Shown here piece by piece: positions 4,692-17,610 of a stretch of DNA of 20,129 bases; position 1 is the first letter of the stretch; every line of letters starts with the position of its first letter. Source of the DNA: a virus; the IMG/VR virus record IMGVR_UViG_3300030331_003519, positions 2,454 to 22,582 of that record, one strand, 5' to 3'. The translations under genes and the position numbers were made by a program. The notes beneath the pieces were generated by a model. That model was not told where the DNA came from and searched no databases. It was given only the letters and a program-made list of their open reading frames with translations.

Positions 4692-5765
4692 ATGAGCAGC
4701 ACATATTCATCTAGATACTTATTAGAATTAATGGCTACTGGAGCCAACGCTAACACTTGGGGTACAAATACCAATAATAACCTCAATGTTATTGATGCTT
4801 TTTCAACTGGTTACATATCAAAATCTGTTGCAGGATCTTCTAATATTACTCTTACCACAACTAATGGTAGTTCTACAACGGAGTCAGCAAATAGAAACAT
4901 TGAATTAACGGGTGCTTTAACTGGTGACATTGTTGTATTCATACCAGCCACAGAGAGCACTTATACATTTTTCAACAACACTACAGGTTCTCAAACATTA
5001 ACTATTGCTGCTACAGGTCATCAAGCTAACGGTGTTACAATCACACAAGGTGCAAAGACAAGTATTTTTTGTGATGGTGCTTCAAATTTTAATATTAAAA
5101 AATGGGCTTCTACTGACTTAGGCTCATTGACAGGAACATTACCTGCTGTTTCAGGTGCTAATTTAACAACACTAAACGCATCTGAACTAGATTCTGGAAC
5201 AGTTCCTAATGCTAGACTAGATGCGCAACTTCAAGATATTGCAGGATTAGCAACAACTGACAGTGGTATTATTGTTGGTAATGGATCTAATTTTGTTCTT
5301 GAAACAGGCGCGACCATGAGAACTTCTTTAGGCTTAGGCACAGCTTCTGATGTTCAGTTTAATGATATGCAAGTAGACTCACTTGGTGTTGCTACTGCAG
5401 CCTCAGGAACAAGTGGTGAAATTAGAGCAACTAACGATATTACAGCTTTCTTTTCATCAGATGTAGCCTTAAAAGAAAACATTGAAAACATATCCTCACC
5501 TATGGAAAAAGTACAAAATTTAAATGGTGTATTGTTTGATTGGAAACAAGATTATATAGACGGAAAGGGTGGTGAAGACGGCTACTTTGTTCGTAAAAGA
5601 GATGTAGGTGTCGTAGCTCAAGATGTAGAAAAAGTTTTACCAGAGGTTGTTGGCACACGACCTGATGGTGTCAAGGCTGTAAAATATGACAGATTATGTG
5701 CATTATTAATTGAATGTGTAAAGGACTTACAAACTCAAGTAGATGATCTTAAGAAGGGAGAATAA
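4692..5765 (+). CDS. Tail fibre protein with C-terminal S74 self-cleaving chaperone
   Basis: 357 residues. The N-terminal 40 residues (YSSRYLLELMATGANANTWG, then NTNNNLNVIDAFSTGYIS) are the usual head of a phage fibre family that attaches to the tail. A beta-rich shaft follows. From about residue 254 lies a peptidase S74/intramolecular chaperone domain: SSDVALKENI with Ser256-Asp257 and Lys261, then DVGVVAQDVEKVLPE (304-318), VKAVKYDRLCALLIE and a terminal coiled coil. In the endosialidase family this domain trimerises the fibre and then cuts itself off next to the Ser, using a Ser/Lys pair five residues apart. That spacing is conserved here. Its position before an adhesin-like gene supports a receptor-binding role. 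Confidence 0.85.
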   Translation: MSSTYSSRYLLELMATGANANTWGTNTNNNLNVIDAFSTGYISKSVAGSSNITLTTTNGSSTTESANRNIELTGALTGDIVVFIPATESTYTFFNNTTGSQTLTIAATGHQANGVTITQGAKTSIFCDGASNFNIKKWASTDLGSLTGTLPAVSGANLTTLNASELDSGTVPNARLDAQLQDIAGLATTDSGIIVGNGSNFVLETGATMRTSLGLGTASDVQFNDMQVDSLGVATAASGTSGEIRATNDITAFFSSDVALKENIENISSPMEKVQNLNGVLFDWKQDYIDGKGGEDGYFVRKRDVGVVAQDVEKVLPEVVGTRPDGVKAVKYDRLCALLIECVKDLQTQVDDLKKGE

Positions 5766-5768
5766 TTT

Positions 5769-6854
5769 ATGACTACACCTTCCGGTCAAATTAGTTTAGA
5801 CGATGTTAATACTGAGCTAGACATATCCCCAGGAACACAAATAAACATGAACGCATCGGCCGTTCGTACTTTAGCAGAAGTGCCAACTGGTGCTATAGGT
5901 ATGTCTGATTTACAAGGTAAATCTAATGCTCAATTTGTTGTAGCCAGTGGTGGATCCACTTCTACACAAGGTGATTTTAAAATTCATGTTTTTAATTCAG
6001 GTGGTACTTTTACTGTAAACCAAGCTGGTAATGCTGCAGGTAGTAACCAAGTAGAATATATGGTTGTTGCTGGTGGCGGAGGCGGTGGTTCAGGTAGAGG
6101 TGGGCCAGAAAATCCATCTAGAAGATCAGGAGGATCAGGTGGTGGTGGAGGATTTAGAGAAGCTAAAAACCCCAATGCACCTTTTCCTGCTAGTCCCTTA
6201 GTTACAAATACTTTAATACCTGTTACAGCCACAAATTTTCCTATTAGCGTTGGTGGAGGCGGGGCAGGTGGCGCAACATCAACTCCTAAAGCTCAGGGTG
6301 GTCCTAGAGGTGATCAAGGTTCAACATCAAGTTTTTCTAACATATCCTCAGCAGGTGGTGGAGGTGGATCAGGCACAAATTTCCCTAATGGTAACGCTGC
6401 ACAATCAGGTGGATCTGGTGGTGGTGGCGGACCTTTCTTTCCTCCTGGTGGATCTGGCAACAGTCCTCCCGTATCTCCACCTCAAGGACAACCTGGTGGC
6501 ACGGGTTCACAAAACCAAGGTGGCAATTCTGGTGGAGGAGCTACAGGATCAGGTTCAACACCTATGGGTGGTGGAATTGTGGGAGCTTCAGGTGGTTCTG
6601 GTGCAACAACTTCTATTGCTTTTAACTCTCAATCATTTGCAGGTGGCGGTGGAGTGGGAGGAGAACCTGGTGGATCAGGAAACAGTGGTGGTGGATCAGG
6701 AGCGGGTCAAACAGGACAATCCGCAACCGCAGGACAAGCAAACACAGGCGGCGGCGGTGGATCAGGAACTTTATTAAGAAACGTACCATCTTCTGAATTA
6801 CAAGGAGCTGCAGGTGGTTCAGGAAAAGTTGTTATAAGGTATAAATTTCAATAA
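5769..6854 (+). CDS. Glycine-rich adhesin-like tail protein
   Basis: 361 residues. Residues 1-52 (SGQISLDDVNTEL..., GAIGMSDLQGKS) form a small domain often found at the start of phage tail/fibre proteins. Residues 53-100 are beta-rich and end in VEYMVVAGGGGGG, a signature of glycine-rich phage and bacterial surface proteins. Residues 101-350 are dominated by Gly, Ser, Asn and Gln, with a Pro-rich island at 222-242 (FFPP, SPPVSPPQGQPGG). The chain closes with GKVVIRYKF. Poly-Gly domains form the tips of some phage adhesins (for example S16 gp38), so host recognition is a fair inference. A GGGAG ribosome-binding site precedes the start. The stop overlaps the next ATG by one base. Confidence 0.72.
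   Translation: MTTPSGQISLDDVNTELDISPGTQINMNASAVRTLAEVPTGAIGMSDLQGKSNAQFVVASGGSTSTQGDFKIHVFNSGGTFTVNQAGNAAGSNQVEYMVVAGGGGGGSGRGGPENPSRRSGGSGGGGGFREAKNPNAPFPASPLVTNTLIPVTATNFPISVGGGGAGGATSTPKAQGGPRGDQGSTSSFSNISSAGGGGGSGTNFPNGNAAQSGGSGGGGGPFFPPGGSGNSPPVSPPQGQPGGTGSQNQGGNSGGGATGSGSTPMGGGIVGASGGSGATTSIAFNSQSFAGGGGVGGEPGGSGNSGGGSGAGQTGQSATAGQANTGGGGGSGTLLRNVPSSELQGAAGGSGKVVIRYKFQ
6069..6821 (+). repeat. Low-complexity Gly-codon repeat tract
   Basis: The segment encoding residues 101-351 of the glycine-rich protein is built largely of GGT/GGA/GGC runs interspersed with TCA and ACA. It produces long open stretches in other frames that are not genes. Such tracts are prone to slippage and recombination and could vary in length between related phages. 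Confidence 0.6.
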
Positions 6855-7345
6855 TGGCACATTTTGCAAAACTAAGTGAAGAAAACATTGTTTTACAGGT
6901 AGAAGTAATAGCTGATGCAGATGCTCCGACAGAAGAGGCAGGGATAGCTTTTTGTCAAAATTTATTTGGGTGGAGTCTTTGGAAACAAACTTCTTATAAT
7001 ACCAGAGGAGGAATTTACTATAATAGTGATGGTACCGAAGGAGATCAATCAAAAGCTTTTAGAAAAAATTATGCAGGTATAGGTTTTACTTATGATAGTT
7101 CTTTAGATGGTTTTATATCACCTAGACCTGAAGGAATGGCCTCATGGGTTATAGACACTTTTTCAGGATATTATCAAACTCCTGTTCCGTATCCAACAAT
7201 TACAACTTATGAATATAATGGACAAACCAAAAATTATCAAATTTCTTGGGATGAAACTAATGTTAGATACGTAGCTTATGACAAAAAAGACCCTGTTAAT
7301 AATTATCGATGGGACTCCTCGGCATTAGAGTGGATAATTATCTAA
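6854..7345 (+). CDS. Small cyanophage-type tail/virion protein
   Basis: 163 residues. The N-terminus MAHFAKLSEENIVLQVEVIA, the segment AFCQNLFG, and the motif RKNYAGIGFTYD (70-81) followed by DGFISPRPEG are typical of a family found in cyanophages and pelagiphages, often several copies per genome and near fibres. Members end in short Trp-containing strands, as here (YRWDSSALEWI). It is thought to be a virion component from its genomic company, but the biochemical role is not established. It begins at a one-base stop/start overlap after the glycine-rich gene and ends 3 bases before the first oxygenase-like gene, so it marks the left border of the accessory island. Confidence 0.75.
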   Translation: MAHFAKLSEENIVLQVEVIADADAPTEEAGIAFCQNLFGWSLWKQTSYNTRGGIYYNSDGTEGDQSKAFRKNYAGIGFTYDSSLDGFISPRPEGMASWVIDTFSGYYQTPVPYPTITTYEYNGQTKNYQISWDETNVRYVAYDKKDPVNNYRWDSSALEWIII

Positions 7346-7348
7346 TTA

Positions 7349-7909
7349 ATGTTTTTTAAACAAAATCTAATTGATCAATCAATATACATAAAAAAAATAC
7401 CGACACAGTTTTCAGACATAGATTTTACGCAAATAAAAAAAGATGCTTTAGAAAGCTATAAAAATAAAAAAGTTTTATCAACTAACAAATTTTCTCCAGA
7501 AATTAATTATTACAAAGTTAAAGATAGAAAAGATAATTTTTGGGTTTATGAATTTATAAGAGATCACTTTAGATTATCGTTTTTACAAAAAACACAAAAC
7601 ACATTGATAATGACAGAAAGTGCTTATGTCGTTGTTAATACAAACTCTGATATTACTTCTCATAATCACATAAATGAATATGATATTAACAATTCACCTG
7701 ATTACACCGCTGTGGTTGTTATCGATGCTGATAAGGATAGTTTTATTGAAATAAATTATGAAGGTGGAAGAAAAAGAAATATGAAACAAAGGATTCCATT
7801 AATACCTATGGAGGTAATTGTTTTTAATGCTGAATTACATCACAGATACTTACTGAACAAAAATCTAAAAAACACAATAGTTTTGGCTTTTAAGTTACAG
7901 TTATTTTGA
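7349..7909 (+). CDS. Divergent 2OG-Fe(II) oxygenase/cupin-like protein
   Basis: 186 residues and the first gene of the accessory island. A mainly helical N-terminal third is followed by a likely jelly-roll core. His105-Asn-His107 (ITSHNHINEYD) and a distal His164/His165 (FNAELHHRYLL) with a basic residue near 171-174 have the order of metal ligands in 2-oxoglutarate/Fe(II) oxygenases, but with HxH instead of the usual HxD. The distal strand ending TIVLAFKL resembles the last core strand of this fold. It may be an oxygenase with an altered triad, a cupin-type metal enzyme, or an inactive relative. It is Lys- and Asn-rich like its neighbours. The gap to the next gene is 21 bases with no clear signal. 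Confidence 0.5.
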   Translation: MFFKQNLIDQSIYIKKIPTQFSDIDFTQIKKDALESYKNKKVLSTNKFSPEINYYKVKDRKDNFWVYEFIRDHFRLSFLQKTQNTLIMTESAYVVVNTNSDITSHNHINEYDINNSPDYTAVVVIDADKDSFIEINYEGGRKRNMKQRIPLIPMEVIVFNAELHHRYLLNKNLKNTIVLAFKLQLF

Positions 7910-7930
7910 TAAGATAATAAAAATTTTAGA

Positions 7931-8551
7931 ATGAACTTAGAAAATTACTACGCTTGCTTTGATAGCATAGTTCCAAGTAGAATTTGTGATTATATAATTG
8001 AGGACGCAGAGCGACAGAGTGAACAAACAGCTATCGTAGGTGATTACAACGAAGTTCCTAAAGACGAAAAAGATATTGCTAAGCTTTACAAGACAAGAAA
8101 CTCATCCATAGTATGGATGAATGATCCTTGGATCTATAGGGAGATAATACCTTTTGTTCGTGAGGCAAATCAATTTTGTAATTGGAATTTTGATTTTCAT
8201 CTATCTGAATCTTGTCAGTTTACAAAATATAGTAAGAGTCAACATTACACCTGGCATCAAGACAGTTGGAATAAGCCTTATGATAGACCAAAAGATATTG
8301 AAAACGGATTAATTAGAAAATTATCTGTTACACTGTCTTTGGCTGACGGAAATAGTTATGAGGGAGGGGATCTAGAGTTTGATATGAGAAACAATGGTGA
8401 TAGCACAAGTAATATACAAAGACCTGAGATGGTTAGAAACAAAGGGACCATTGTAGTGTTTCCATCATTTGTTTGGCACAGAGTAACACCTGTTACAAAA
8501 GGCACAAGATATTCATTAGTTGTTTGGAATTTAGGGTTACCATTTAGATAG
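7931..8551 (+). CDS. PKHD-type 2OG-Fe(II) oxygenase
   Basis: 206 residues. This is the clearest member of the island's oxygenase set. His109-Gln-Asp111 (YTWHQDSW) is the HxD pair. His183 (FVWHRVTPVTKGTRYSLVVW) is the distal iron ligand, and Arg193 ten residues later is the expected 2-oxoglutarate carboxylate binder. RKLSVTLSL (129-137), EGGDLEF and GTIVVFPSF (172-180) are the usual core strands of prolyl-4-hydroxylase-like phage enzymes. Such proteins use Fe(II), O2 and 2-oxoglutarate to hydroxylate a protein or small molecule. The substrate here is not known. The start is the first ATG after a 21 bp gap, and the gene ends where AGGAG serves the next. Confidence 0.88.
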   Translation: MNLENYYACFDSIVPSRICDYIIEDAERQSEQTAIVGDYNEVPKDEKDIAKLYKTRNSSIVWMNDPWIYREIIPFVREANQFCNWNFDFHLSESCQFTKYSKSQHYTWHQDSWNKPYDRPKDIENGLIRKLSVTLSLADGNSYEGGDLEFDMRNNGDSTSNIQRPEMVRNKGTIVVFPSFVWHRVTPVTKGTRYSLVVWNLGLPFR

Positions 8552-8558
8552 GAGAAAT

Positions 8559-9191
8559 ATGAAAACTAATTTTTTTCAAGAAAAAAATTTTAATGTTGTA
8601 AAAGAAGCTATACCTACTGATCTAGCTTTTTTCTTAAATAATTATTTACATAACAAAAGAAAATGTTTTTTATATATGCAAGAAACAAACAACATATCAA
8701 AAAGTGATAAATCATGGGGAGAATACACGGACACACAAATACCTAATACTTGGGGTAATTATGGTGATCTTTGTATGGATTCTTTATTAGAATGGATATC
8801 ACCAACCATGCAAAGAATCACAGGTTTAGAATTAATACCTTGTTATTCTTATACTAGAATTTACAAATATGGTGATGAGTTACATAGGCACAAAGATAGA
8901 CCATCTTGTGAAATATCTTGCACAATGAACTTAGGTGGGGATACGTGGCCTATATTTTTAGAGCCCTCAGGTGAGGAAAACAAAGAAGGAATATCTGTTA
9001 TATTAAATCCTGGTGATATACTTGTTTACAAAGGGCAATTATTGGAACATTGGAGAGAGCCGTTTCAGGGATTTGAATGCACACAAGTTTTTCTTCATTA
9101 CAATGATAAGAACGGACCTTTTGGTGAAACTAATTTGTATGATAGACGACCTGTATTAGGACTACCCTCATGGTCAAGACCACAGAATTAA
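8559..9191 (+). CDS. 2OG-Fe(II) oxygenase-like protein
   Basis: 210 residues. His111-Lys-Asp113 (DELHRHKDRPS) matches the HxD motif and is preceded by LIPCYSYTRIYKYG, a strand seen in many phage 2OG oxygenases. His164 (LLEHWREPFQG) is the probable distal ligand, with NPGDILVYKG as the strand leading to it. No Arg or Lys lies exactly ten residues after this His, where CTQVFLHY occurs, so 2-oxoglutarate binding may use another residue such as Arg166. The same HWREPF...QVFLHY ending occurs in other marine phage proteins as far as I recall. The start has AGGAG at 8550-8554. The 3' end overlaps the next gene by 22 bases. Substrate unknown. Confidence 0.75.
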   Translation: MKTNFFQEKNFNVVKEAIPTDLAFFLNNYLHNKRKCFLYMQETNNISKSDKSWGEYTDTQIPNTWGNYGDLCMDSLLEWISPTMQRITGLELIPCYSYTRIYKYGDELHRHKDRPSCEISCTMNLGGDTWPIFLEPSGEENKEGISVILNPGDILVYKGQLLEHWREPFQGFECTQVFLHYNDKNGPFGETNLYDRRPVLGLPSWSRPQN

Positions 9192-9769
9192 AGGAATATA
9201 AGTTAGATTACAATACCTTCATGGGTGGATGGTACATATCGCCAAATATATGTGAAGGGCTTATTGATCATTATGAAAACAATAAGGATAAATCTTTACT
9301 TGGACATGTTGGTAATGATGATAAAGCAATAGTTAATCGTAAACTCAAAGATTCCAGAGATGTTAAAATACACGCAGAAAACGAACATGGCATAATTGGT
9401 ATCTATCGTGAGGAACTACAAAAAGTTTTAATTAAATATTTAGAAAAATATCCTATGGCAAATAGTGTCTTAAGATTTTCAATAACTGAAAATTTTAATT
9501 TACAAAAGTATCCAAAGGGAGGAGGCTTTAAAGCGTGGCATTGTGAAAATAACGGAGCTGAAAAAATAATGAGTAGGAATTTGGTTTTTATGACATATTT
9601 AAATTCTGTCGAAAAAGGTGGTACAGACTTTTATCATCAAAAAATTACCACACCCGCGGAGGTGGGCTTAACATTAATTTGGCCTAGCTATTGGACACAT
9701 GTTCATAGGGGGCAGGTCTGTAAAACAGAAGAAAAGTACATTATTACAGGATGGTATAATTTTGTCTAA
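9170..9769 (+). CDS. 2OG-Fe(II) oxygenase with HxE iron motif
   Basis: 199 residues. PKGGGFKAWHCENNG carries His124-Cys-Glu126, an HxE in place of HxD. RNLVFMTYLNSVEKGGTDFY is the following core, and WPSYWTHVHRG provides His177 (or His179). Lys189 in EEKYIITGWYNF sits at the 2-oxoglutarate-binding position. Glu is an accepted iron ligand variant in some dioxygenases, and FKxWHxE...TGWY is a recurrent phage version. The ATG at 9170 gives an N-terminal extension of 17 residues before MGGWYISP. That internal ATG (9221) is an alternative start without a close ribosome-binding site. The gene overlaps its upstream neighbour by 22 bases and the next start by 8. Confidence 0.8.
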   Translation: MVKTTELKEYKLDYNTFMGGWYISPNICEGLIDHYENNKDKSLLGHVGNDDKAIVNRKLKDSRDVKIHAENEHGIIGIYREELQKVLIKYLEKYPMANSVLRFSITENFNLQKYPKGGGFKAWHCENNGAEKIMSRNLVFMTYLNSVEKGGTDFYHQKITTPAEVGLTLIWPSYWTHVHRGQVCKTEEKYIITGWYNFV

Positions 9770-10325
9770 AAAATTAAAAGATTTTATTTATCATCAAAAT
9801 ATTTTTTCTAAAGATTTAGCTGATGAGATTATTTTTGAATATAAGGATAATGACTTTGATAGACACTCACATCACAATCAAGAAACAAGACATTTAGGCA
9901 GTATAGAGATTAGTAACAGTGAAACTATAAATCAAGTTAATAGTTATGAAAGAGCTTTAATTGTAGAAAAAACGACAAAAGAAATTGATAAAATAGTAGA
10001 GAATTATTTAAAATTTATAAAAACAGAAAGTTTACCTATAGAACAATCCTCTCCTTTCTCACTTCGTCAGATGAATGTGGGTGATTGGTATGGTGAGCAT
10101 GATGATGATGGAGTAGGTGCTTCTACAGGTGATTATAAGTTTACCATATCTATTTGTTTGAATGATGACTATAAGGGAGGAGATTTTTCTTTTTTTAACA
10201 ACACCATTAAATACAAATTAAAAAAAGGTGATGTATTAATGTTTCCCTCTAATTTTATGTTTCCTCATCAAGTAAATAAAATTATCAAGGGGACACGTTA
10301 TCAGCTTTTGTTATGGCTAAGATAA
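9762..10325 (+). CDS. PKHD-type 2OG-Fe(II) oxygenase (TTG start)
   Basis: 187 residues when started at TTG 9762, which has AGGA at 9748-9751 upstream and overlaps the previous stop. An in-frame ATG at 9699 would add 21 residues lying entirely within the previous gene, and the extra sequence does not look like a domain, so I prefer the TTG. Catalytic features: His113-Asp-Asp115 (WYGEHDDDGVG), the core FTISICLNDDYKGGDFSFF, GDVLMFPSNF, distal His169 (FPHQVNKIIKGTRYQLLLW) and Arg179. This is the full set of iron and co-substrate ligands. N-terminally, IFSKDLADEIIFEY is the usual helix of P4H-like phage enzymes. It ends 13 bases inside the DUF616-like gene. Confidence 0.85.
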   Translation: MSKKLKDFIYHQNIFSKDLADEIIFEYKDNDFDRHSHHNQETRHLGSIEISNSETINQVNSYERALIVEKTTKEIDKIVENYLKFIKTESLPIEQSSPFSLRQMNVGDWYGEHDDDGVGASTGDYKFTISICLNDDYKGGDFSFFNNTIKYKLKKGDVLMFPSNFMFPHQVNKIIKGTRYQLLLWLR

Positions 10326-10969
10326 TTTTTTATTGTGTGCAAACAGGTAAAAGAGGATTGATGCCTTGCATAAAAAAACAAAAAATAAATGATTTTGAAT
10401 ATTGGTTTGCTCATGACAATCATTCACAAGCAAAAGAGAATAAAGGATGGAACTACATAAATATAAGTAATAATCACACACATCTATCTGATCCTAAAAG
10501 ACAAAGGCTTTATAGATTTATACCAAGATTATTATTTACAGATTTTGATTATACTGTCTATGTAGATAGTAAATTTTATCAACACCGTGATTTTTATAAT
10601 TTTTGTTTAGATATAATAAATAAAGAAAAACCAAACTGGATGACTTGTTTTCATAAAGAAAAAAGAACATTTGAACAGGAACTGCAATTTGCGATCGAGC
10701 ATAAGAATATACCAGAGCAAGACATTAAAAAAGTTATGTCAATTGTTAATTCTAATAAGTGGGTTTCTTATGACACGTGTTGGCTTATTCGTAAAAACAC
10801 AGATAAAAACCATGACATAGGTCACAAATGGTTTGAACTTACCGATAAGTGCTTTTCGTATAATTGTAGAGATCAACTAACTTTATCAGAATGCATAAGT
10901 AAAAATTATGTAAACACTAACCATACTATTCAAGAATTAGAGAAATATTCAATTATAAAGCATGTATAA
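10313..10969 (+). CDS. DUF616-like glycosyltransferase
   Basis: 218 residues. PKRQRLYRFIPRLLFTDFDY, then VYVDSKFYQ (83-91), reproduces the DUF616 (TOD1/MUCI70-type) signature: a basic helix, a 'Phe-x-Asp-Tyr' segment and a V-D-x strand in the place of the donor-binding DxD of GT-A enzymes. CFHKEKRTFEQE and CRDQLTLSE (185-193) correspond to the family's H..R...EE and RDQLSF motifs. Members are presumed sugar transferases, and few have been tested. It starts 13 bases inside the upstream oxygenase gene and overlaps the ComB-like gene by 8. No signal peptide or membrane segment, so it should act in the cytoplasm. Donor and acceptor sugars cannot be predicted. Confidence 0.72.
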   Translation: MAKIIFYCVQTGKRGLMPCIKKQKINDFEYWFAHDNHSQAKENKGWNYINISNNHTHLSDPKRQRLYRFIPRLLFTDFDYTVYVDSKFYQHRDFYNFCLDIINKEKPNWMTCFHKEKRTFEQELQFAIEHKNIPEQDIKKVMSIVNSNKWVSYDTCWLIRKNTDKNHDIGHKWFELTDKCFSYNCRDQLTLSECISKNYVNTNHTIQELEKYSIIKHV

Positions 10970-11603
10970 AATATATGAACAGCCTTTTGATTATAAAACA
11001 TTAGATAATAATGTAGTCTTAATTGATGTCTTAAGAGCAGCCACTGTGGCAAACGTTGTGTTAAGTAAAAACCCAGTTGTTTATTTTATGTCTGCTAATG
11101 AGGACGAGATAAATATAATAAAACAAAAAAATAAAAACGCTGTAACAATAGGTAAAAGACAAAAAAATATTTATACTTATCCTAACTCTCCTAGTGTTCT
11201 TTGGAGCGCAGATTTAAATAAAAGGTGTGTTTTGCATAGTTCAGCAGCTTGTGGCGGAATGTTGGATAAACTAAAAAAGCACAATGTGTTATTATGTGGG
11301 TTTTGTAATATTTCTGCAACTGCCGATTATATACAAAACAGTAATTTAGATTGGAGTATTGTTTGTTGTGGATTTAGAGGAGAGGAGCGTAATGATGAGG
11401 ACAAACTATGTGCCGATATGATTACTAAAAATATAAACAGTAATCAAAATGATATTTTTTTAAATTTAAAAGACTCAGAGTCCTTAACTATATTTGAAAA
11501 AAATCAACAAGATTATCCTAAAAAAGATATTGAAATATGTTTAACTTTAGACATGTTTTCATTCCCGATAAAAGCAAAAGAAAATATTATTACAAAGGCA
11601 TGA
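10962..11603 (+). CDS. ComB-family (2-phosphosulfolactate phosphatase-like) protein
   Basis: 213 residues, close to the usual ComB length of about 230-240. VVLIDVLRAATVANVVLS (18-35, with Asp22 and Arg25) matches the ComB opening motif VVIDVLRATT. NSP at 75-77 fits the GNSP motif, VLHSSAACGG (90-99) replaces TTTNGT, GFCNISATA (113-121) matches G.(L/F)N..A.A, and SIVCCGFRGEERNDEDKLCA (132-151) matches the (I/V)VCAG..G....ED.LCA box. The ending DIEICLTLDMFSFP is also ComB-like. ComB is a Mg-dependent phosphatase that converts 2-phospho-3-sulfolactate to sulfolactate in coenzyme M synthesis. The family's GER/GFD segment is degraded here (GKRQKN), so substrate and even activity may differ. No other coenzyme M gene is present. 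Confidence 0.75.
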   Translation: MYKIYEQPFDYKTLDNNVVLIDVLRAATVANVVLSKNPVVYFMSANEDEINIIKQKNKNAVTIGKRQKNIYTYPNSPSVLWSADLNKRCVLHSSAACGGMLDKLKKHNVLLCGFCNISATADYIQNSNLDWSIVCCGFRGEERNDEDKLCADMITKNINSNQNDIFLNLKDSESLTIFEKNQQDYPKKDIEICLTLDMFSFPIKAKENIITKA

Positions 11604-12049
11604 TAAAAGTTTTAGACAATTTTTTTCCTAATGATGTGTACGATAAAATGTTGGAGGATTCAAAAAATAATTGGCAAAACAAAGAATATTTTATTTACAA
11701 AGACTTAACTGAAAAATTATATACTATAGATGTAATTAATTATATGAGCTCTAAATTAGAGCAAAATATTACATTATATAGAGCTTATTCGCACGGACAT
11801 CCAAGCGACTACCCGCACAACATACATCAAGATAAAAACTCTACACACACTGCAATACTGTTTTTAAACAAGGATTATTATAAAGATTGGCAAGGTGGGA
11901 CTATAATATATACAAATTGTACTAATTATATAGATTTTGTGCCTAACAGACTTATAATATTTGAAGCAAATTTAGATCATGTTGGAACACCGTTTACAAA
12001 TACAAATAATTTTAGACTACAGAATGTTTGGAAAATAAATATTAATTAA
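11600..12049 (+). CDS. Small 2OG-Fe(II) oxygenase
   Basis: 149 residues using the ATG at 11600 (ATGA overlap with the ComB-like gene, AAAGG a few bases upstream). An in-frame ATG 63 bases earlier lies wholly within the previous gene and is less likely. NIHQDKNSTHTAILFL supplies His76-Gln-Asp78, QGGTIIY is the core, FEANLDHVGTPF gives His127, and Arg139 (NFRLQNVW) sits in the 2-oxoglutarate position. This is a minimal jelly-roll enzyme with a short N-terminal helical lead (NFFPNDVYDKMLED). It resembles phage enzymes of the prolyl hydroxylase type more than AlkB. Substrate unknown. It is followed by a 5 bp gap. Confidence 0.82.
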   Translation: MIKVLDNFFPNDVYDKMLEDSKNNWQNKEYFIYKDLTEKLYTIDVINYMSSKLEQNITLYRAYSHGHPSDYPHNIHQDKNSTHTAILFLNKDYYKDWQGGTIIYTNCTNYIDFVPNRLIIFEANLDHVGTPFTNTNNFRLQNVWKININ

Positions 12050-12054
12050 TAATT

Positions 12055-12534
12055 ATGCTGGAGATATTTGATAATAAAATTAAAGATATTGATAAAATTT
12101 ATAAAGAATTAAAAAAACTACCTTATTACTATGGCGAGGTTGATGATATAAATTATGAACCCACAGGTTTGACATCTGAGTTATCCGAGGATAGTTTCAC
12201 TTATAAATCAATAAAATCTTTTATTTTTGAAAATGAAGTGCTTAGAAATAAAACAATACTTAGATCCTATGTAAATTTATTTTTACCTAGAGAACAACCT
12301 AATTACCATACAGATGGAGATGTAGGCACAACATTATTGTATTATGCTAATTTATATTATGATATAAATGAAGGAGGAGAAACAAAGTTTTTATCAGAAA
12401 ATAATACATTGATTTCTGTTTTACCAACACCTGGAAGAGTAGTTTTTTTTCCTGCTAATTATAAACACACTGCCTCTTCTTTCAAAAATAAACATAGATT
12501 TACAGTAGCATTTAAGTTTAAGGAGAGTATGTAA
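12055..12534 (+). CDS. Prolyl-4-hydroxylase-like 2OG-Fe(II) oxygenase
   Basis: 159 residues. QPNYHTDGD supplies His85-Thr-Asp87. LLYYANLYYDINEGGETKF is the canonical P4H core (strand then GGET), LPTPGRVVFFPANYKHTASSF supplies His138, and Arg148 (NKHRFTVAFKF) is the co-substrate ligand ten residues later. The order and spacing are those of P4H-like enzymes, which hydroxylate proline or other residues. The N-terminal part (FDNKIKDIDKIYKELKKLPY) is helical. No membrane segment or signal peptide. The final residue overlaps the next gene by one base (TAATG). As with its neighbours, no target can be read from the sequence. Confidence 0.87.
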   Translation: MLEIFDNKIKDIDKIYKELKKLPYYYGEVDDINYEPTGLTSELSEDSFTYKSIKSFIFENEVLRNKTILRSYVNLFLPREQPNYHTDGDVGTTLLYYANLYYDINEGGETKFLSENNTLISVLPTPGRVVFFPANYKHTASSFKNKHRFTVAFKFKESM

Positions 12535-13346
12535 TGTTAACACAAGAAGAATTAAAGAAAAAAGATTTTAAAATATTTTTAGGTATGCCTATGTATGGTG
12601 GCATGTTATCAGAGGCAACCTTACATGGTTTATTAGAACTACAACAATGGTCCATGGCCCACAACATAGGTTTACGAATACAAACAATGGGTAATGAAAG
12701 TCTAATCACAAGAGCGAGGAACACCATAGTTTCTATGATGATGGATCAAACTGATTATGTTGCGACTCATTTATTATTTATAGACGCTGATATAGGATTC
12801 TCGTGGAGAAACGTAGAGAGATTATTGTGTGCAGAAAAAGATATAGCTTGTGGCATTTATCCTAGAAAACATTTACATTTTGAAAAAGTTGCAAATGTTC
12901 TTGCAAATTTTCCAAACGCTACGCCTGACGAGATAGAGGCTAAGATACTTGGTTACAACGTGAACTTTGATGACCCGACACACTTAAAGGGAGAGAATGG
13001 TTTTTTTAAAGTAAATGAAGCGGCCACGGGGATGATGTTAGTAAAGCGTCATGTTTTTAGAACTATGTTTAAAAAGTTTCCTGAAAGAAAGTATGAGTCA
13101 GATCAAATAGTTAACGGTGGCGGTTATAAGTCAGATAACTGCTATGACTTATTTGCTGTGGGTCCTTACGAAACTGTCGGACAAAAAAGATATTTATCAG
13201 AAGATTATTATTTTTCTAGATTGTGGCAAGAGTGTGGTGGAGAGATATGGGCTGATTTATCTATGCCATTAACACATTTTGGAAACAGAGGTTATAAAGG
13301 ACACGTGGGTGCGTTAGTTGCACAAGTTAAAAATGAGACATCTTAG
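12534..13346 (+). CDS. Glycosyltransferase-like protein (GT-A, LFIDADIGF motif)
   Basis: 270 residues. IFLGMPMYGGMLSEAT opens a nucleotide-sugar-binding type fold. LITRARNTIVSMMM (57-70) is followed by THLLFIDADIGFSW with Asp84-Ala-Asp86, a DxD motif that binds metal and sugar nucleotide in GT-A enzymes. A later SEDYYFSRLW (222-231) gives the typical acidic catalytic region, and HFGNRGYKGH (248-257) may supply a metal ligand. Proteins with this combination occur in many marine phages, and I recognise them as GT2-like. It has no membrane segments. It is flanked by oxygenase genes and overlaps both. Acceptor unknown: a virion protein, host glycan or modified nucleotide are all possible. Confidence 0.8.
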   Translation: MLTQEELKKKDFKIFLGMPMYGGMLSEATLHGLLELQQWSMAHNIGLRIQTMGNESLITRARNTIVSMMMDQTDYVATHLLFIDADIGFSWRNVERLLCAEKDIACGIYPRKHLHFEKVANVLANFPNATPDEIEAKILGYNVNFDDPTHLKGENGFFKVNEAATGMMLVKRHVFRTMFKKFPERKYESDQIVNGGGYKSDNCYDLFAVGPYETVGQKRYLSEDYYFSRLWQECGGEIWADLSMPLTHFGNRGYKGHVGALVAQVKNETS

Positions 13347-13896
13347 GTTAATTCAACACAATATCGCATCTCATTATGCTGTATATATAGTAGATAATTT
13401 TTTAGAAAGTGATTATCACAAACAAATTTTAGAAAAGGTCATAGAGCTAACGCAGAAAGATAGTATGGCACAACAAACTAATGTGAAAGCAAACATGACA
13501 AAATTTACTGAATTACTTAATCATAAATTATTTGAAAAAATGTTTATGATGTCAGTAGAATTATTACAAATGTTTTTTACATTAAGATCGCCATCACCAA
13601 CTAACCCTTATGAGTATATCATAGATGAAGCATGGGCCATGAAACATCTCAAAGGTAATAACACAATAGAGCACATTCATGGATGCGAGTATTTTTCATG
13701 TGCATATTATCCAAAAATACCAGGGGAGACCACCATGTCATTTTCAGATTTTGGTTGTTTTGAAACCTTAAAAGAAAATTCATTATATATCTTCCATGGT
13801 TTAACTAAACATGCGGTTTTACCACAACAATATGATGAGCCCAGATACTCAATTGCATTTAATATATTACAAAAAAATATTAAAAATAAATTGTAA
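13333..13896 (+). CDS. Putative 2OG-Fe(II) oxygenase, HxH type (2OG-FeII_Oxy_5-like)
   Basis: 187 residues with ATG at 13333, which overlaps the upstream gene by 14 bases. TTG at 13318 would add five residues. WAMKHLKGNNTIEHIHGCEY, then FSCAYYPKIPG, resembles the H.H....SGVYY segment of PF13759 (2OG-FeII_Oxy_5). Here His114-Ile-His116 stands where other members of the island have HxD. TMSFSDFG, LYIFHGLTKHAVLP (His155, His160) and Arg171 in EPRYSIAFN complete the pattern. Sequence order supports the fold. Whether an HxH-type site retains catalysis is not clear. The first 70 residues are helical and longer than in most family members. The stop overlaps the next ATG by one base. Confidence 0.7.
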   Translation: MRHLRLIQHNIASHYAVYIVDNFLESDYHKQILEKVIELTQKDSMAQQTNVKANMTKFTELLNHKLFEKMFMMSVELLQMFFTLRSPSPTNPYEYIIDEAWAMKHLKGNNTIEHIHGCEYFSCAYYPKIPGETTMSFSDFGCFETLKENSLYIFHGLTKHAVLPQQYDEPRYSIAFNILQKNIKNKL

Positions 13897-14393
13897 TGGA
13901 CATAAAAATAAATGAAAATGTCATTTCAAGAGAGTACAATGTTTTATCGCAAGATGATAAAAACCTCATTCTTGATGATGTAAAATATCAAATTAAACAT
14001 CATCCTTGTAAGGATGTTGCTCCTTATCAAACACACGCTAATCTTTTTCAAAGATATAAAGATAAGATTTATTGGAATAGACTATATCTTAATGCAAGAG
14101 CCATGGTTGATGAAAATTACGAGTATTATAAATCATGGGCTAATTTATCAAATGAGGACAATGACTACAAATTTCACAAACATAAAAATAAAAGGACTTG
14201 CATATATTATTTAAAAAGTAATTTACCGGAGTTTGGCACTAAATTAGAGAACAATATTATCATTGAGGCGGTAGAAAATTCTATGGTCTCTTTTGATGGA
14301 ATGATACCTCATTCTGTAGCAAATATGCCTAAAAACATAGCAAAGAAAAACCCTAGATATTCTGTTGTTTTTGACTTTAAACTGGCTTTCTAG
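13896..14393 (+). CDS. 2OG-Fe(II) oxygenase-like protein, HxH type
   Basis: 165 residues and the last gene of the contiguous island. YKFHKHKNKRTCIYYLKS carries His94-Lys-His96 in the place of HxD, followed by the core GTKLENNIIIEAV. SMVSFDGMIPHSVANMP supplies His139, and Arg154 in PRYSVVFDFKL is the probable co-substrate ligand. This makes it a relative of the preceding HxH-type gene, though the two share little sequence beyond the motif. A hydroxylase function is inferred from fold pattern only. It begins at a TAATG overlap and ends 12 bases before the nozzle-like structural gene, so it marks the right border of the island. Confidence 0.65.
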   Translation: MDIKINENVISREYNVLSQDDKNLILDDVKYQIKHHPCKDVAPYQTHANLFQRYKDKIYWNRLYLNARAMVDENYEYYKSWANLSNEDNDYKFHKHKNKRTCIYYLKSNLPEFGTKLENNIIIEAVENSMVSFDGMIPHSVANMPKNIAKKNPRYSVVFDFKLAF

Positions 14394-14405
14394 TATATTA
14401 TCGCA

Positions 14406-16232
14406 ATGCCTCTAGTAAATTTTAGACCAGCTCCTGGTATCAACAAAGAAGTTACTGACTATACTGGTCAGGGTAAGTGGACTGATGGTGATATGGTGAG
14501 ATTCTTTCAAGGATCTGCACAGAAAATCAAAGGATGGGAAAAGTTTATAAGCACCACATTAGTCGGTGTTGCCAGAGACGCTCATGCGTGGGTTGGATTG
14601 GACGGCACAAGATTACTTGCTGTAGGAACAGACAGAAAACTTTATATAGTTATTGAGGGTCTTGCCTATGACATTACTCCAATAAGAGAAACTCAAGCAT
14701 TAACTAACCCATTTACAACTAATGGCACGACTTCAGTGTCTGTTGCAGACTCATCGCATGGAGCAACTAAAGGTGACTTTGTTACATTTGACTCTTTTAG
14801 TGCCATAGATGGCTTAGACATGAATAAAGAGTTTGAGATAACTTCAATTACTGACAACAATAATTATGTTGTGACAGCTACATCGGCTGCATCAGGATCA
14901 ACTTCTGGTGGCGGGGGTAGTGGTAATGCTAAGTATCAAATAAGTATTGGACCTGAAGTATCCACGTCTGCTTTTGGATGGGGTACAGACACATGGGGAG
15001 CTGGGGGATGGGGTAGCCCATCAACATCATCTACCGTAACATTAGAGGCTAGACAATGGTCTTTGGACAATTTTGGAGAAGATCTCATAGCCACAGTATT
15101 AAATGGGGGAGCATTTAGGTGGGACACATCTAGTGGTGTAGCTACAAGAGCAGCAGTGATTACAAATGCACCTACAAGATCAAGATTAAGTTTAGTTTCT
15201 ACACCTGATAGACATTTATTATTTTTTGGTACACAGCCTACTATTGGTGGTACAAACGCACAAGATGATCTATTATTAAGATTTTCAGATCAAGAAGATA
15301 TAAACACATATCAACCAACTGCAGAAAACACTGCAGGTTCGCTGCGCATAGCTGACGGATCACGGATCGTGGCCGCAGAGCGATCAAGAGGTCAAATATT
15401 GGTGTGGACAGATACATCATTACACTCTTTACAATTTATCGGTCCTCCTTTTACTTTTGGTTTGAGACAACTAGGTCAAAATTGTGGCATTGTAGGGATA
15501 CACGCAGGAGTTGATATAAACGGTGTAAGTTATTGGATGTCTCAAGACTCTTTCTTTTTATTTGATGGTTCTGTTAAAAAACTACCCTGCACTGTAGAAC
15601 AGTTTGTTTTTAACAATTTAAACGTGACAGGTGCAGAAAATGCTTTTGCAGGCCACAATGGTGAGTTTAATGAAATTATGTGGTTCTATCCTAGAACAGG
15701 ATCAGATACGATAAACGCAATCGTAGCTTATAATTATTTAGAGCAAACATGGTGGACAGGGACACTAGATAGAACTACTTGGTTGGATAGAGAGGTATAT
15801 GACAACCCTCTGGCTACAGACTATCTACCAACGACCACTGCTAACAATGAAGTAATCTCAGGACTGACCGATGGTGCAACACAATTGTTTTTACACGAAA
15901 CAGGGAACAATGGTGATGGTGCTGCTATCACAGCTTTTGTAAAATCAGGTGTTGTGCAAATAGGTGAGGGTAATGAATTTGCTTTTGTATCAAAACTAAT
16001 ACCTGATATAGAGGATCAAGAGGGCACCTTAAATGCTAAATTAGAATTTAAAAATTATCCAAATAATAGCACAAGCGTAACAAAAACAGTTTCATTTCAG
16101 GATAACACAGACTTTGTAAGTCTTCGTGGCAGGGGTAGAGAATTTACAGTAAACGTTGTATCGAACACTACAGGCACCGCATGGAGATTAGGCACACAAA
16201 GATTTGACATACAGCCTGATGGTAGAAGATAA
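14406..16232 (+). CDS. Nozzle/tail tubular-type structural protein
   Basis: 608 residues, the largest gene. The N-terminus (NFRPAPGINKEVTDYTGQGK, then WTDGDMVRFFQGSAQKIKGWEKF) is the hallmark of a large marine phage structural family with INxEVT-Y..-G.W.D.D.VRF..G...KIGGW. It is followed by repeated beta segments ending in Trp or Phe (LLFFGTQ, ILVWTDTSLHSL, YWMSQDSFFLFDG, EIMWFYPRTGSD, AYNYLEQTWW), consistent with a beta-propeller such as in T7 gp12-type nozzle proteins. A Trp/Gly-rich insert at 191-204 (GWGTDTWGAGGWGS) echoes the repeat protein at 3656. With the adaptor at 2497 it would form the short tail tube. It restarts the virion operon after the accessory island. Nozzle assignment is by pattern and context. 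Confidence 0.78.
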   Translation: MPLVNFRPAPGINKEVTDYTGQGKWTDGDMVRFFQGSAQKIKGWEKFISTTLVGVARDAHAWVGLDGTRLLAVGTDRKLYIVIEGLAYDITPIRETQALTNPFTTNGTTSVSVADSSHGATKGDFVTFDSFSAIDGLDMNKEFEITSITDNNNYVVTATSAASGSTSGGGGSGNAKYQISIGPEVSTSAFGWGTDTWGAGGWGSPSTSSTVTLEARQWSLDNFGEDLIATVLNGGAFRWDTSSGVATRAAVITNAPTRSRLSLVSTPDRHLLFFGTQPTIGGTNAQDDLLLRFSDQEDINTYQPTAENTAGSLRIADGSRIVAAERSRGQILVWTDTSLHSLQFIGPPFTFGLRQLGQNCGIVGIHAGVDINGVSYWMSQDSFFLFDGSVKKLPCTVEQFVFNNLNVTGAENAFAGHNGEFNEIMWFYPRTGSDTINAIVAYNYLEQTWWTGTLDRTTWLDREVYDNPLATDYLPTTTANNEVISGLTDGATQLFLHETGNNGDGAAITAFVKSGVVQIGEGNEFAFVSKLIPDIEDQEGTLNAKLEFKNYPNNSTSVTKTVSFQDNTDFVSLRGRGREFTVNVVSNTTGTAWRLGTQRFDIQPDGRR

Positions 16233-16728: not shown

Positions 16729-17077
16729 TGTATTTAGAAGATTTATCGCAAATCTAACAACGACTGATTTGACGACCGTGTTTACAGTGCCCACTGCTAA
16801 TGTTGCAGCCACTCCACCAGTTCCTGTATCTACTTTTATTGTTAAAACAATTAACACGCACAACTATGATGGCTCGAATGCGGTCACTGTAGATGTTGAT
16901 CATAATAATGGTAGTGCTGATTTACAAGTTTTTCAAATTGATGTATCGGCTTCGAATACTAATACCATCAATAGTAGCATGGTATATCAAGAGGGTGACT
17001 CTTTTAAGGTTCAAGCAAATGCTGCGTCAAGAGCTATGGTTGAAGTTTCTGTATTGGAGATCAAACAACAACAGTAA
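16721..17077 (+). CDS. Small beta-rich phage structural protein
   Basis: 118 residues. FRRFIANLTTTDLTTVFTVP starts the chain, followed by strand-like blocks (FIVKTINTHN, NAVTVDVDHNN, LQVFQIDVSAS) and YQEGDSFKVQANAASRAMVEVSVLEI. Small beta-sandwich proteins of this kind, with the 'L..T.LTT.FT.P' opening and 'EGDxxKVxA' ending, recur in phage tail operons. Probable virion component, exact place unknown. It starts within the final codons of the small upstream gene and its stop overlaps the next ATG by one base, so it is part of a coupled chain. Confidence 0.7.
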   Translation: MADVFRRFIANLTTTDLTTVFTVPTANVAATPPVPVSTFIVKTINTHNYDGSNAVTVDVDHNNGSADLQVFQIDVSASNTNTINSSMVYQEGDSFKVQANAASRAMVEVSVLEIKQQQ

Positions 17078-17610
17078 TGAAAATAGAATTATTTTCTATT
17101 CCTATTTGGATAGGTAATATAGATTCATCCAGAATTAAGATTCAAGACAAAAACATAGGAGAGAGTTTTAAATCAAAAATAAGAACATCGATACATGGTC
17201 AGAACATAATTGATGAAGATTCTTTAAATTATTTATATGAAGTAATATCTAAGCTTTTAAAAAAAAACGTGCTACCAAGATATAAGCTGCAGTTGGAGCA
17301 CATTTGGACTAATTATTATGAAGACTCTGATTATCAAGAAAATCACGCACATGCAGGAACTCATTTATCATTTATTATTTATAAAAAAATTGAAGAATCT
17401 AATGTAGTTTTTGTAAACCCTAACTCTATTGTTTTAGACTCATATTATAATGGTGATGACGACAAAATAGCCTTTTTTGGTGGCACCACTTTTAGACCTC
17501 AATGTAGAGAAAATCAAATCATTCTTTTTCCTTCTTATTTGGAACATTTTGTAAAAAGAACTAATGATGCAATATCCATAGCAGGGAACTTATATATGAA
17601 TTTTGAGTAG
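17077..17610 (+). CDS. Putative 2OG-Fe(II) oxygenase (2OG-FeII_Oxy_5-like), outlying copy
   Basis: 177 residues. The N-terminus MKIELFSIPIWIGNID is typical of PF13759 members. LEHIWTNYYEDSDYQENHAH carries His90-Ala-His92, followed by THLSFIIYKK (compare SGVYYL) and VFVNPNS. RENQIILFPSYLEHFVKR gives the distal His157, and ISIAGNLYMNFE is the closing strand. This is the canonical layout of the family, whose substrates are unknown. It stands apart from the main island by about 2.7 kb, between two small virion genes, and joins its upstream neighbour through a one-base overlap. This looks like a separate insertion into the structural operon. It is AT-rich and Lys/Asn-rich like the island genes. 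Confidence 0.78.
   Translation: MKIELFSIPIWIGNIDSSRIKIQDKNIGESFKSKIRTSIHGQNIIDEDSLNYLYEVISKLLKKNVLPRYKLQLEHIWTNYYEDSDYQENHAHAGTHLSFIIYKKIEESNVVFVNPNSIVLDSYYNGDDDKIAFFGGTTFRPQCRENQIILFPSYLEHFVKRTNDAISIAGNLYMNFE

Follow-up and report, generated by a model that had tools for sequence, protein, structure and literature searches.

The window analyzed here, 20,129 nucleotides spanning bases 2454-22582 of the 22,582-base viral contig IMGVR_UViG_3300030331_003519, comes from a marine phage related to phages that infect SAR11 bacteria. Positions 7349-14393 are filled by twelve open reading frames (ORFs) on the same strand, nine oxygenase-like, two glycosyltransferase-like and one ComB-like, and this block lies between tail-fibre/adhesin genes (4692-7345) upstream and a nozzle-type gene (14406-16232) downstream. 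By comparing the block with those of related phages, we found that two kinds of its oxygenases are inherited with the type of adhesin encoded beside them and not with the rest of the genome. A reading that we favour with modest confidence is that the block is a virion-modification module, in which the first two oxygenases serve the adhesin specifically and the other enzymes elaborate the adhesin or modify other virion proteins. An earlier note on this DNA had listed these twelve genes at this site as what looked like a chemical-modification module linked to the virion genes. The gene content is borne out by Pfam, PHROG, AlphaFold and family members, to which a tenth oxygenase (17077-17610) is added; the site is confirmed by the nozzle assignment and by the relatives, and the idea of a module gains support. 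The substrate, which that note left open, can be narrowed towards the adhesin for the first two oxygenases only.

The oxygenases are labelled by position: OXa (7349), OXb (7931), OXc (8559), OXd (9170), OXe (9699), OXf (11537/11600), OXg (12055), OXh (13318), OXi (13896) and OXj (17077). Gene families are labelled likewise: GT after the glycosyltransferase-like gene at 12534, t3656 and t3195 after the two tail genes that start there, and 16721 after the small gene at that position.

Inheritance of the first oxygenases with the adhesin

A search with the nozzle gene gave 80 IMG/VR loci, and HTVC023P, HTVC027P and 023Pt_psg01 are the isolate or named relatives; the full comparison set holds 89 loci with distinct nozzle sequences. 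The first set contained 45 loci and the held-out set 45 newly fetched loci with unseen nozzle sequences, which belong to the same lineage and are thus partly dependent on the first set. Contigs L080 and L090 are near-identical and so give no independent evidence. Family profiles were trimmed to domains, since permissive iterative profiles otherwise merged fused proteins.

The gene upstream of the block is of three types: a short S74 fibre, a long S74 fibre, or a glycine-rich adhesin together with a protein of the 6854 type. In the first set each type has a distinct kind of OXb/d and of OXc beside it. The adhesin type changes two times on the OXc tree, which is the minimum for three types, and three times on the OXb/d tree, as against 9-10 times on the trees of the nozzle gene, GT, t3195, 16721 and t3656, the gene on the adhesin's other (upstream) side. 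Over all loci, the OXc tree (81 rows) needs two changes and the nozzle tree (89 rows) needs 15.

When the adhesin type of a held-out locus was predicted from its nearest relative, OXc was correct in 44/45 cases and OXb/d in 39/43, compared with 31/45 for the nozzle gene, 31/45 for GT and 16/30 for t3656 (sign tests of OXc: p 0.001 against nozzle, 0.001 against GT and 0.0002 against t3656). A leave-one-out prediction over the 89 loci, with nozzles of at least 95% identity excluded and a chance level of ~0.43, succeeded in 80/81 cases for OXb/d/e and 85/89 for OXc. The scores of the other genes were 52/68 for accessory oxygenases between OXc and GT, 52/78 for those between GT and nozzle, 76/121 for downstream oxygenases, 56/86 for GT, 64/89 for nozzle, 42/61 for t3656 and 32/69 for 16721. 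GT, then, tracks the backbone and not the adhesin. The association also holds inside the short-S74 type, where adhesin distance beyond that of the nozzle gives a partial Mantel r of 0.58 for OXc and 0.57 for OXb/d, and 0.10 for t3656. OXa lies directly 3' of the 6854-type gene in 32/32 OXa loci, HTVC023P included, several of these being near-copies, and in the cyanophage S-SM1 a glycine-rich and 6854-type pair stands directly before an oxygenase run.

Genes of the block, their folds and their distribution

The genes of the block and its surroundings are as follows.

4692..5765, +, tail fibre protein with C-terminal S74 intramolecular chaperone (PF13884 E 1.6e-13; tail phrogs)
5769..6854, +, glycine-rich adhesin, 27% Gly (PF21722 Gly_rich_2 E 4.6e-12; composition)
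6854..7345, +, small adhesin-associated protein phrog_7759 (phrog_7759 E 5e-33)
7349..7909, +, OXa, oxygenase fold, HxH...H, no RxS anchor (AlphaFold pLDDT 86; 2rg4 Z 16; vCPH Z 15.6; hhalign)
7931..8551, +, OXb, PKHD/P4H-like 2-oxoglutarate (2OG) oxygenase, HQD...H...R (PF13640 E 2e-15; P4H profile E 1.7e-12)
8559..9191, +, OXc, P4H-fold oxygenase, phrog_2954 'ferrochelatase', HKD...H (AlphaFold pLDDT 95; phrog_2954 E 5e-48; invariant H111, D113, H164)
9170..9769, +, OXd, 2OG oxygenase, HCE at the HxD position (PF13640 E 5e-8; phrog_61 E 6e-34)
9699..10325, +, OXe, 2OG oxygenase, HDD...H...R; the real start may lie downstream of 9699 (PF13640 E 1e-11)
10313..10969, +, TOD1/MUCI70 (DUF616)-type glycosyltransferase-like protein (PF04765 in 4/5 family members, best 1.2e-6)
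10962..11603, +, ComB-like, 2-phosphosulfolactate phosphatase family (PF04029 E 3e-19; 2yyv E 8.5e-7)
11600..12049, +, OXf, 2OG oxygenase, HQD...H...R; the longest ORF starts at 11537, and the start is probably 11600, giving an ATGA overlap with ComB (phrog_274 E 7e-15; NF052475 E 8e-7)
12055..12534, +, OXg, 2OG oxygenase, HTD...H...R (phrog_274 E 1e-24; PF13640 3.6e-5)
12534..13346, +, GT-A-like glycosyltransferase phrog_1574, core gene of the site (phrog_1574 E 2e-37; phrog_34859 6e-5; D84xD86)
13318..13896, +, OXh, PF13759 2OG oxygenase, HIH...H...R (PF13759 E 2e-8; profile matches 2rg4/3bvc)
13896..14393, +, OXi, PF13759-like oxygenase, HKH...H...R (phrog_274 E 9e-9; phrog_81 3e-7)
14406..16232, +, nozzle/tail stabilisation protein, backbone reference gene (phrog_3287 E 8e-84)
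17077..17610, +, OXj, tenth oxygenase, downstream of the nozzle gene and outside the block (PF13759 E 1.5e-8; phrog_81 E 1e-27)

Five of the ten oxygenases score above the Pfam cut-off: 7931, 9170 and 9699 with PF13640, and 13318 and 17077 with PF13759. The products of 11537, 12055 and 13896 fall under it, yet match PHROG oxygenase families. The remaining two, 7349 and 8559, have no Pfam support, and 7349 has no profile match of its own; AlphaFold models were made for both. The best match of the 8559 model (predicted local distance difference test, pLDDT, 95) is a Pseudomonas P4H (Foldseek E 1.4e-9), and SnoN, PHD2 and P4H align at Z 15-17. The 7349 model (pLDDT 86) matches the viral collagen prolyl hydroxylase vCPH (Z 15.6) and 2rg4/3bvc (Z 16), solved proteins that are also matched by the PF13759-type profile of OXh/OXj; hhalign pairs 7349 with the 13318/17077 profile at 97% probability (E 2e-10), with the HxH and the distal His aligned. 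The hhalign comparison of the 8559 and 7931 families is weak (13%), so the 8559 assignment rests on its fold and motif. Sequence-profile searches of the PDB with the 8559, 10313 and 7349 families gave nothing useful. The double-stranded beta-helix (jelly-roll) fold is thus indicated by the models for 7349 and 8559 and by Pfam/PHROG profiles for the rest, and none of the proteins was placed outside it. OXb/d/e match P4H chains by profile (E 1.7e-12 to 1e-10), and the other oxygenases match at the superfamily level only.

An HxD/E...H motif is found in 7931, 8559, 9170, 9699, 11537 and 12055. In 7349, 13318, 13896 and 17077 it is replaced by HxH...H, a putative iron-binding site, of which the HxH is invariant in the OXh/j alignment. 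Judged by eye, an R or K occupies the RxS position in 7931, 9170, 9699, 11537, 12055, 13318 and 13896.

The 8559 family corresponds to phrog_2954, which is called 'ferrochelatase' in PHROGs and in GenBank records (e.g., HTVC023P gp67 and HTVC008M gp068). At E<=1, none of 38 phrog_2954 members has a ferrochelatase Pfam match, and the members share an invariant HxD...H. Based on the model, phrog_2954 is predicted to have a prolyl-hydroxylase-like oxygenase fold and not to be a ferrochelatase. Other family names show a similar picture: phrog_274, 'DNA endonuclease V', also collects oxygenases (11537, 12055 and 13896), and Syn9 and S-SM1 genes named phrog_274 or phrog_1644 ('minor coat protein') match oxygenase profiles. 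A link of 11537 to FlmC (NF052475) was not used, because Caulobacter FlmC is described in the literature as a cytidylyltransferase-like protein.

Regarding the sugar-type enzymes, 12534 has an invariant D84xD86 (DxD) and matches phrog_34859 glycosyltransferase (6e-5), and Anp1 is matched in 4/23 relatives. The profile searches proposed in the earlier note (PF13640, PF13759, DUF616 and PF04029) all gave matches, but for 10313 only through its family: the window's own protein has no PF04765 match, and 4/5 family members match TOD1/MUCI70. The ComB-like protein reaches 69.3 bits with PF04029 (curated cut-off 26.4) and is under the NCBIfam equivalog cut-off (best 72 vs 235 bits); a coenzyme M pathway was not seen. 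ComB was found in ten and DUF616 in eight IMG/VR contigs, and neither has a match among 50,697 phage records. Wherever the neighbour is visible (10313-11603; L057, L090-L096), ComB is directly 3' of DUF616 and was never seen alone there; DUF616 also occurs without ComB.

In most relatives the block occupies the same site with a core order of OXb or OXd, then OXc, then GT, so the linked unit that the earlier note had proposed to look for is present, and this synteny across many related contigs excludes chance. HTVC023P carries the block there as gp64-71. Between adhesin and nozzle the 89 loci carry 2-9 oxygenases with a median of 4 (two in 5 loci, three in 27, four in 28, five in 22, six in 5, eight in 1 and nine in 1), the window being the maximum. 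The density, which the earlier note called exceptional, is indeed extreme for the lineage, yet it is not unprecedented or new in kind: clusters of this sort are a general feature of HTVC023P-type phages, tail-fibre genes of the cyanomyoviruses Syn9 and S-SM1 are adjoined by runs of 8-9 same-family oxygenases, and in HTVC008M five oxygenase genes are located between those for the tail fibre and the neck. Recent import from a source of unusual GC content was considered for the block (GC 0.30) and rejected, since the relatives' blocks have the same mean of 0.30, compared with 0.39 for the nozzle gene (77 loci).

Some variations were also seen. HTVC027P has three oxygenase genes at the block site on the opposite strand (L087, 10283-11944). 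An OXc-OXb fusion ORF is found in L018, L030, L042 and L065; those of them with a visible adhesin belong to the long-S74 type. L071 has an OXc-GT fusion. Tryptophan halogenase genes lie near the oxygenase clusters of HTVC008M (L113, 1293-2687) and Syn9 (L116, 10966-14071), and these enzymes might share virion substrates with the oxygenases.

Proposed role and competing explanations

In the virion-modification module that we favour, the OXb/d-type and OXc-type enzymes would, with the aid of Fe(II), O2 and 2-oxoglutarate, hydroxylate side chains of the adhesin, or of its small partner (6854-7345), before the tail is assembled. The GT-A enzyme could then add or process a group on the hydroxylated residues, or act on another virion protein, and in the window's subgroup the DUF616/ComB pair may likewise add or process such a group. 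OXf-OXj show less coupling to the adhesin and may have other virion proteins as their targets. The likely benefit would be a stabilised or chemically diversified receptor-binding surface. It is the co-inheritance that favours the adhesin as substrate, and it does so for the first two oxygenases only. The position of the block between adhesin and nozzle genes in relatives, and of the myoviral runs (HTVC008M, Syn9 and S-SM1) beside tail-fibre genes, supports a virion role, and the nearness of profiles and folds to protein hydroxylases (P4H, PHD2, vCPH and Pseudomonas P4H) supports a protein substrate. Two narrower substrates were rejected: a collagen-like Gly-X-Y protein, as the glycine-rich adhesin at 5769 lacks such repeats, and a C-terminal extension of the 6854-type protein as the OXa target, which lengths had suggested, as the alignment contains OXa-positive members without the extension.

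Several observations weigh against such a role. Prolyl-hydroxylase-like folds also act on small molecules, and SnoN, EctD and H11 are among the fold matches. By eye, the usual RxS anchor for 2OG was not seen in 7349, 8559 and 17077. The OXa orthologues of HTVC023P (L086, 6542-7042) and 023Pt_psg01 (L089, 7820-8320) have lost the metal His at both sites, and four 6854-type genes have no labelled oxygenase alongside. The OXa orthologue of L182 has lost its metal-binding His at the distal site. Judging from their residues, such His-lacking orthologues, kept beside the 6854-type gene, are probably pseudo-oxygenases, and OXa may be a pseudo-enzyme or an assembly factor in part of the lineage. Given the missing anchors and metal His, not all ten proteins need be active.

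The main competing explanation is that the adhesin and the first two oxygenases travel together through recombination in the conserved flanking genes t3656 and GT, which could carry the interval between them regardless of function, so that action of the enzymes on the adhesin need not be assumed. The two genes are indeed conserved anchors, and the coupling of the accessory oxygenases that lie between them is intermediate, 52/68 to 61/70 (0.76-0.87), as linkage predicts. Yet OXb/d and OXc are coupled much more sharply (0.96-0.99) than the other interval genes, the coupling is weak for the gene upstream of the adhesin, and both the link between OXa and the 6854-type gene and the clustering of HTVC023P OXc with that of the window's lineage persist across backbones with ~42% nozzle identity; we therefore consider this explanation unlikely. 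Another option, that the oxygenases and the 'ferrochelatase' are auxiliary metabolic genes (AMGs) acting on host metabolites or on iron/heme metabolism during infection, is what has been published for HTVC023P-type phages (PMC9599517) and for seasonal pelagiphages (PMC11561400). It seems quite improbable to us, as the fold, the HxD...H and the Pfam results for phrog_2954 do not suit a ferrochelatase and a metabolite role leaves the tie of the enzyme pair to the adhesin type unexplained. The GT-A-like and TOD1/MUCI70-like genes could also suggest that GT, DUF616 and ComB are sugar enzymes of a system that modifies host surface glycans or phage-made surface sugars, for example in superinfection exclusion. 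This is very improbable, since GT follows the backbone rather than the adhesin and ComB and DUF616 are limited to few contigs.

A broader proposal that extends the virion-modification module, and that we put forward tentatively at somewhat less than even chances, is that marine phages carry exchangeable cassettes of an adhesin and its modifiers, in which each type of receptor-binding protein has a dedicated oxygenase pair that hydroxylates it, with glycosylation by shared enzymes, so that enzymes diversify the host-binding surfaces in addition to sequence. If so, many '2OG oxygenase' and 'ferrochelatase' AMGs of SAR11 phages and cyanophages would be virion-modification enzymes.

Comparison with known systems

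The closest known clusters are those of HTVC023P-type pelagiphages (Wittmers et al. 2022, PMC9599517), which share lineage, families and neighbourhood with the window. The window differs in having more oxygenases (9+1) and in the addition of DUF616 and ComB. In the parts of that paper considered here the reading is host metabolism with a true ferrochelatase, and the coupling to the adhesin is not described; PMC11561400, which names phrog2954 explicitly, builds on the 'ferrochelatase' name as well. 2OG oxygenases are common marine-phage AMGs for which the literature cited here gives no established substrate; that two of them are inherited together with the adhesin offers a concrete and testable one. 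The 'ferrochelatase' (phrog_2954) drawn on for ecological interpretation would, according to the model, have another oxygenase fold. If the adhesin is the substrate, part of the pelagiphage AMG literature would need to be reread as virion maturation and not host metabolism.

Syn9 (gp45-54) and S-SM1 (051-061) encode their 8-9 oxygenases in a tight same-strand run after the tail-fibre genes; unlike the window's phage they are cyanobacterial myoviruses, Syn9 adds tryptophan halogenases, and DUF616 and ComB were not detected in them. At the level of single proteins, PBCV-1 vCPH, Pseudomonas P4H, PHD2 and PKHD hydroxylases are linked to OXb/d/e by profile (1.7e-12) and to 7349 and 8559 by fold, whereas identity is ~9-15% and the metal/2OG motifs vary in the window (HxH, HxE, missing Arg). 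Collagen hydroxylation followed by glycosylation (lysyl hydroxylase/glycosyltransferase) offers a works-like analogy only, as genes for hydroxylases and glycosyltransferases here accompany that for a glycine-rich fibrous protein; a Gly-X-Y repeat is absent from the adhesin, the enzymes are separate and any homology of the glycosyltransferases would be hypothetical. The window's block is the largest found in the lineage set and adds DUF616 and ComB to a known pelagiphage and cyanophage feature, and the coupling to the adhesin is a new, quantified addition to the known oxygenase clusters.

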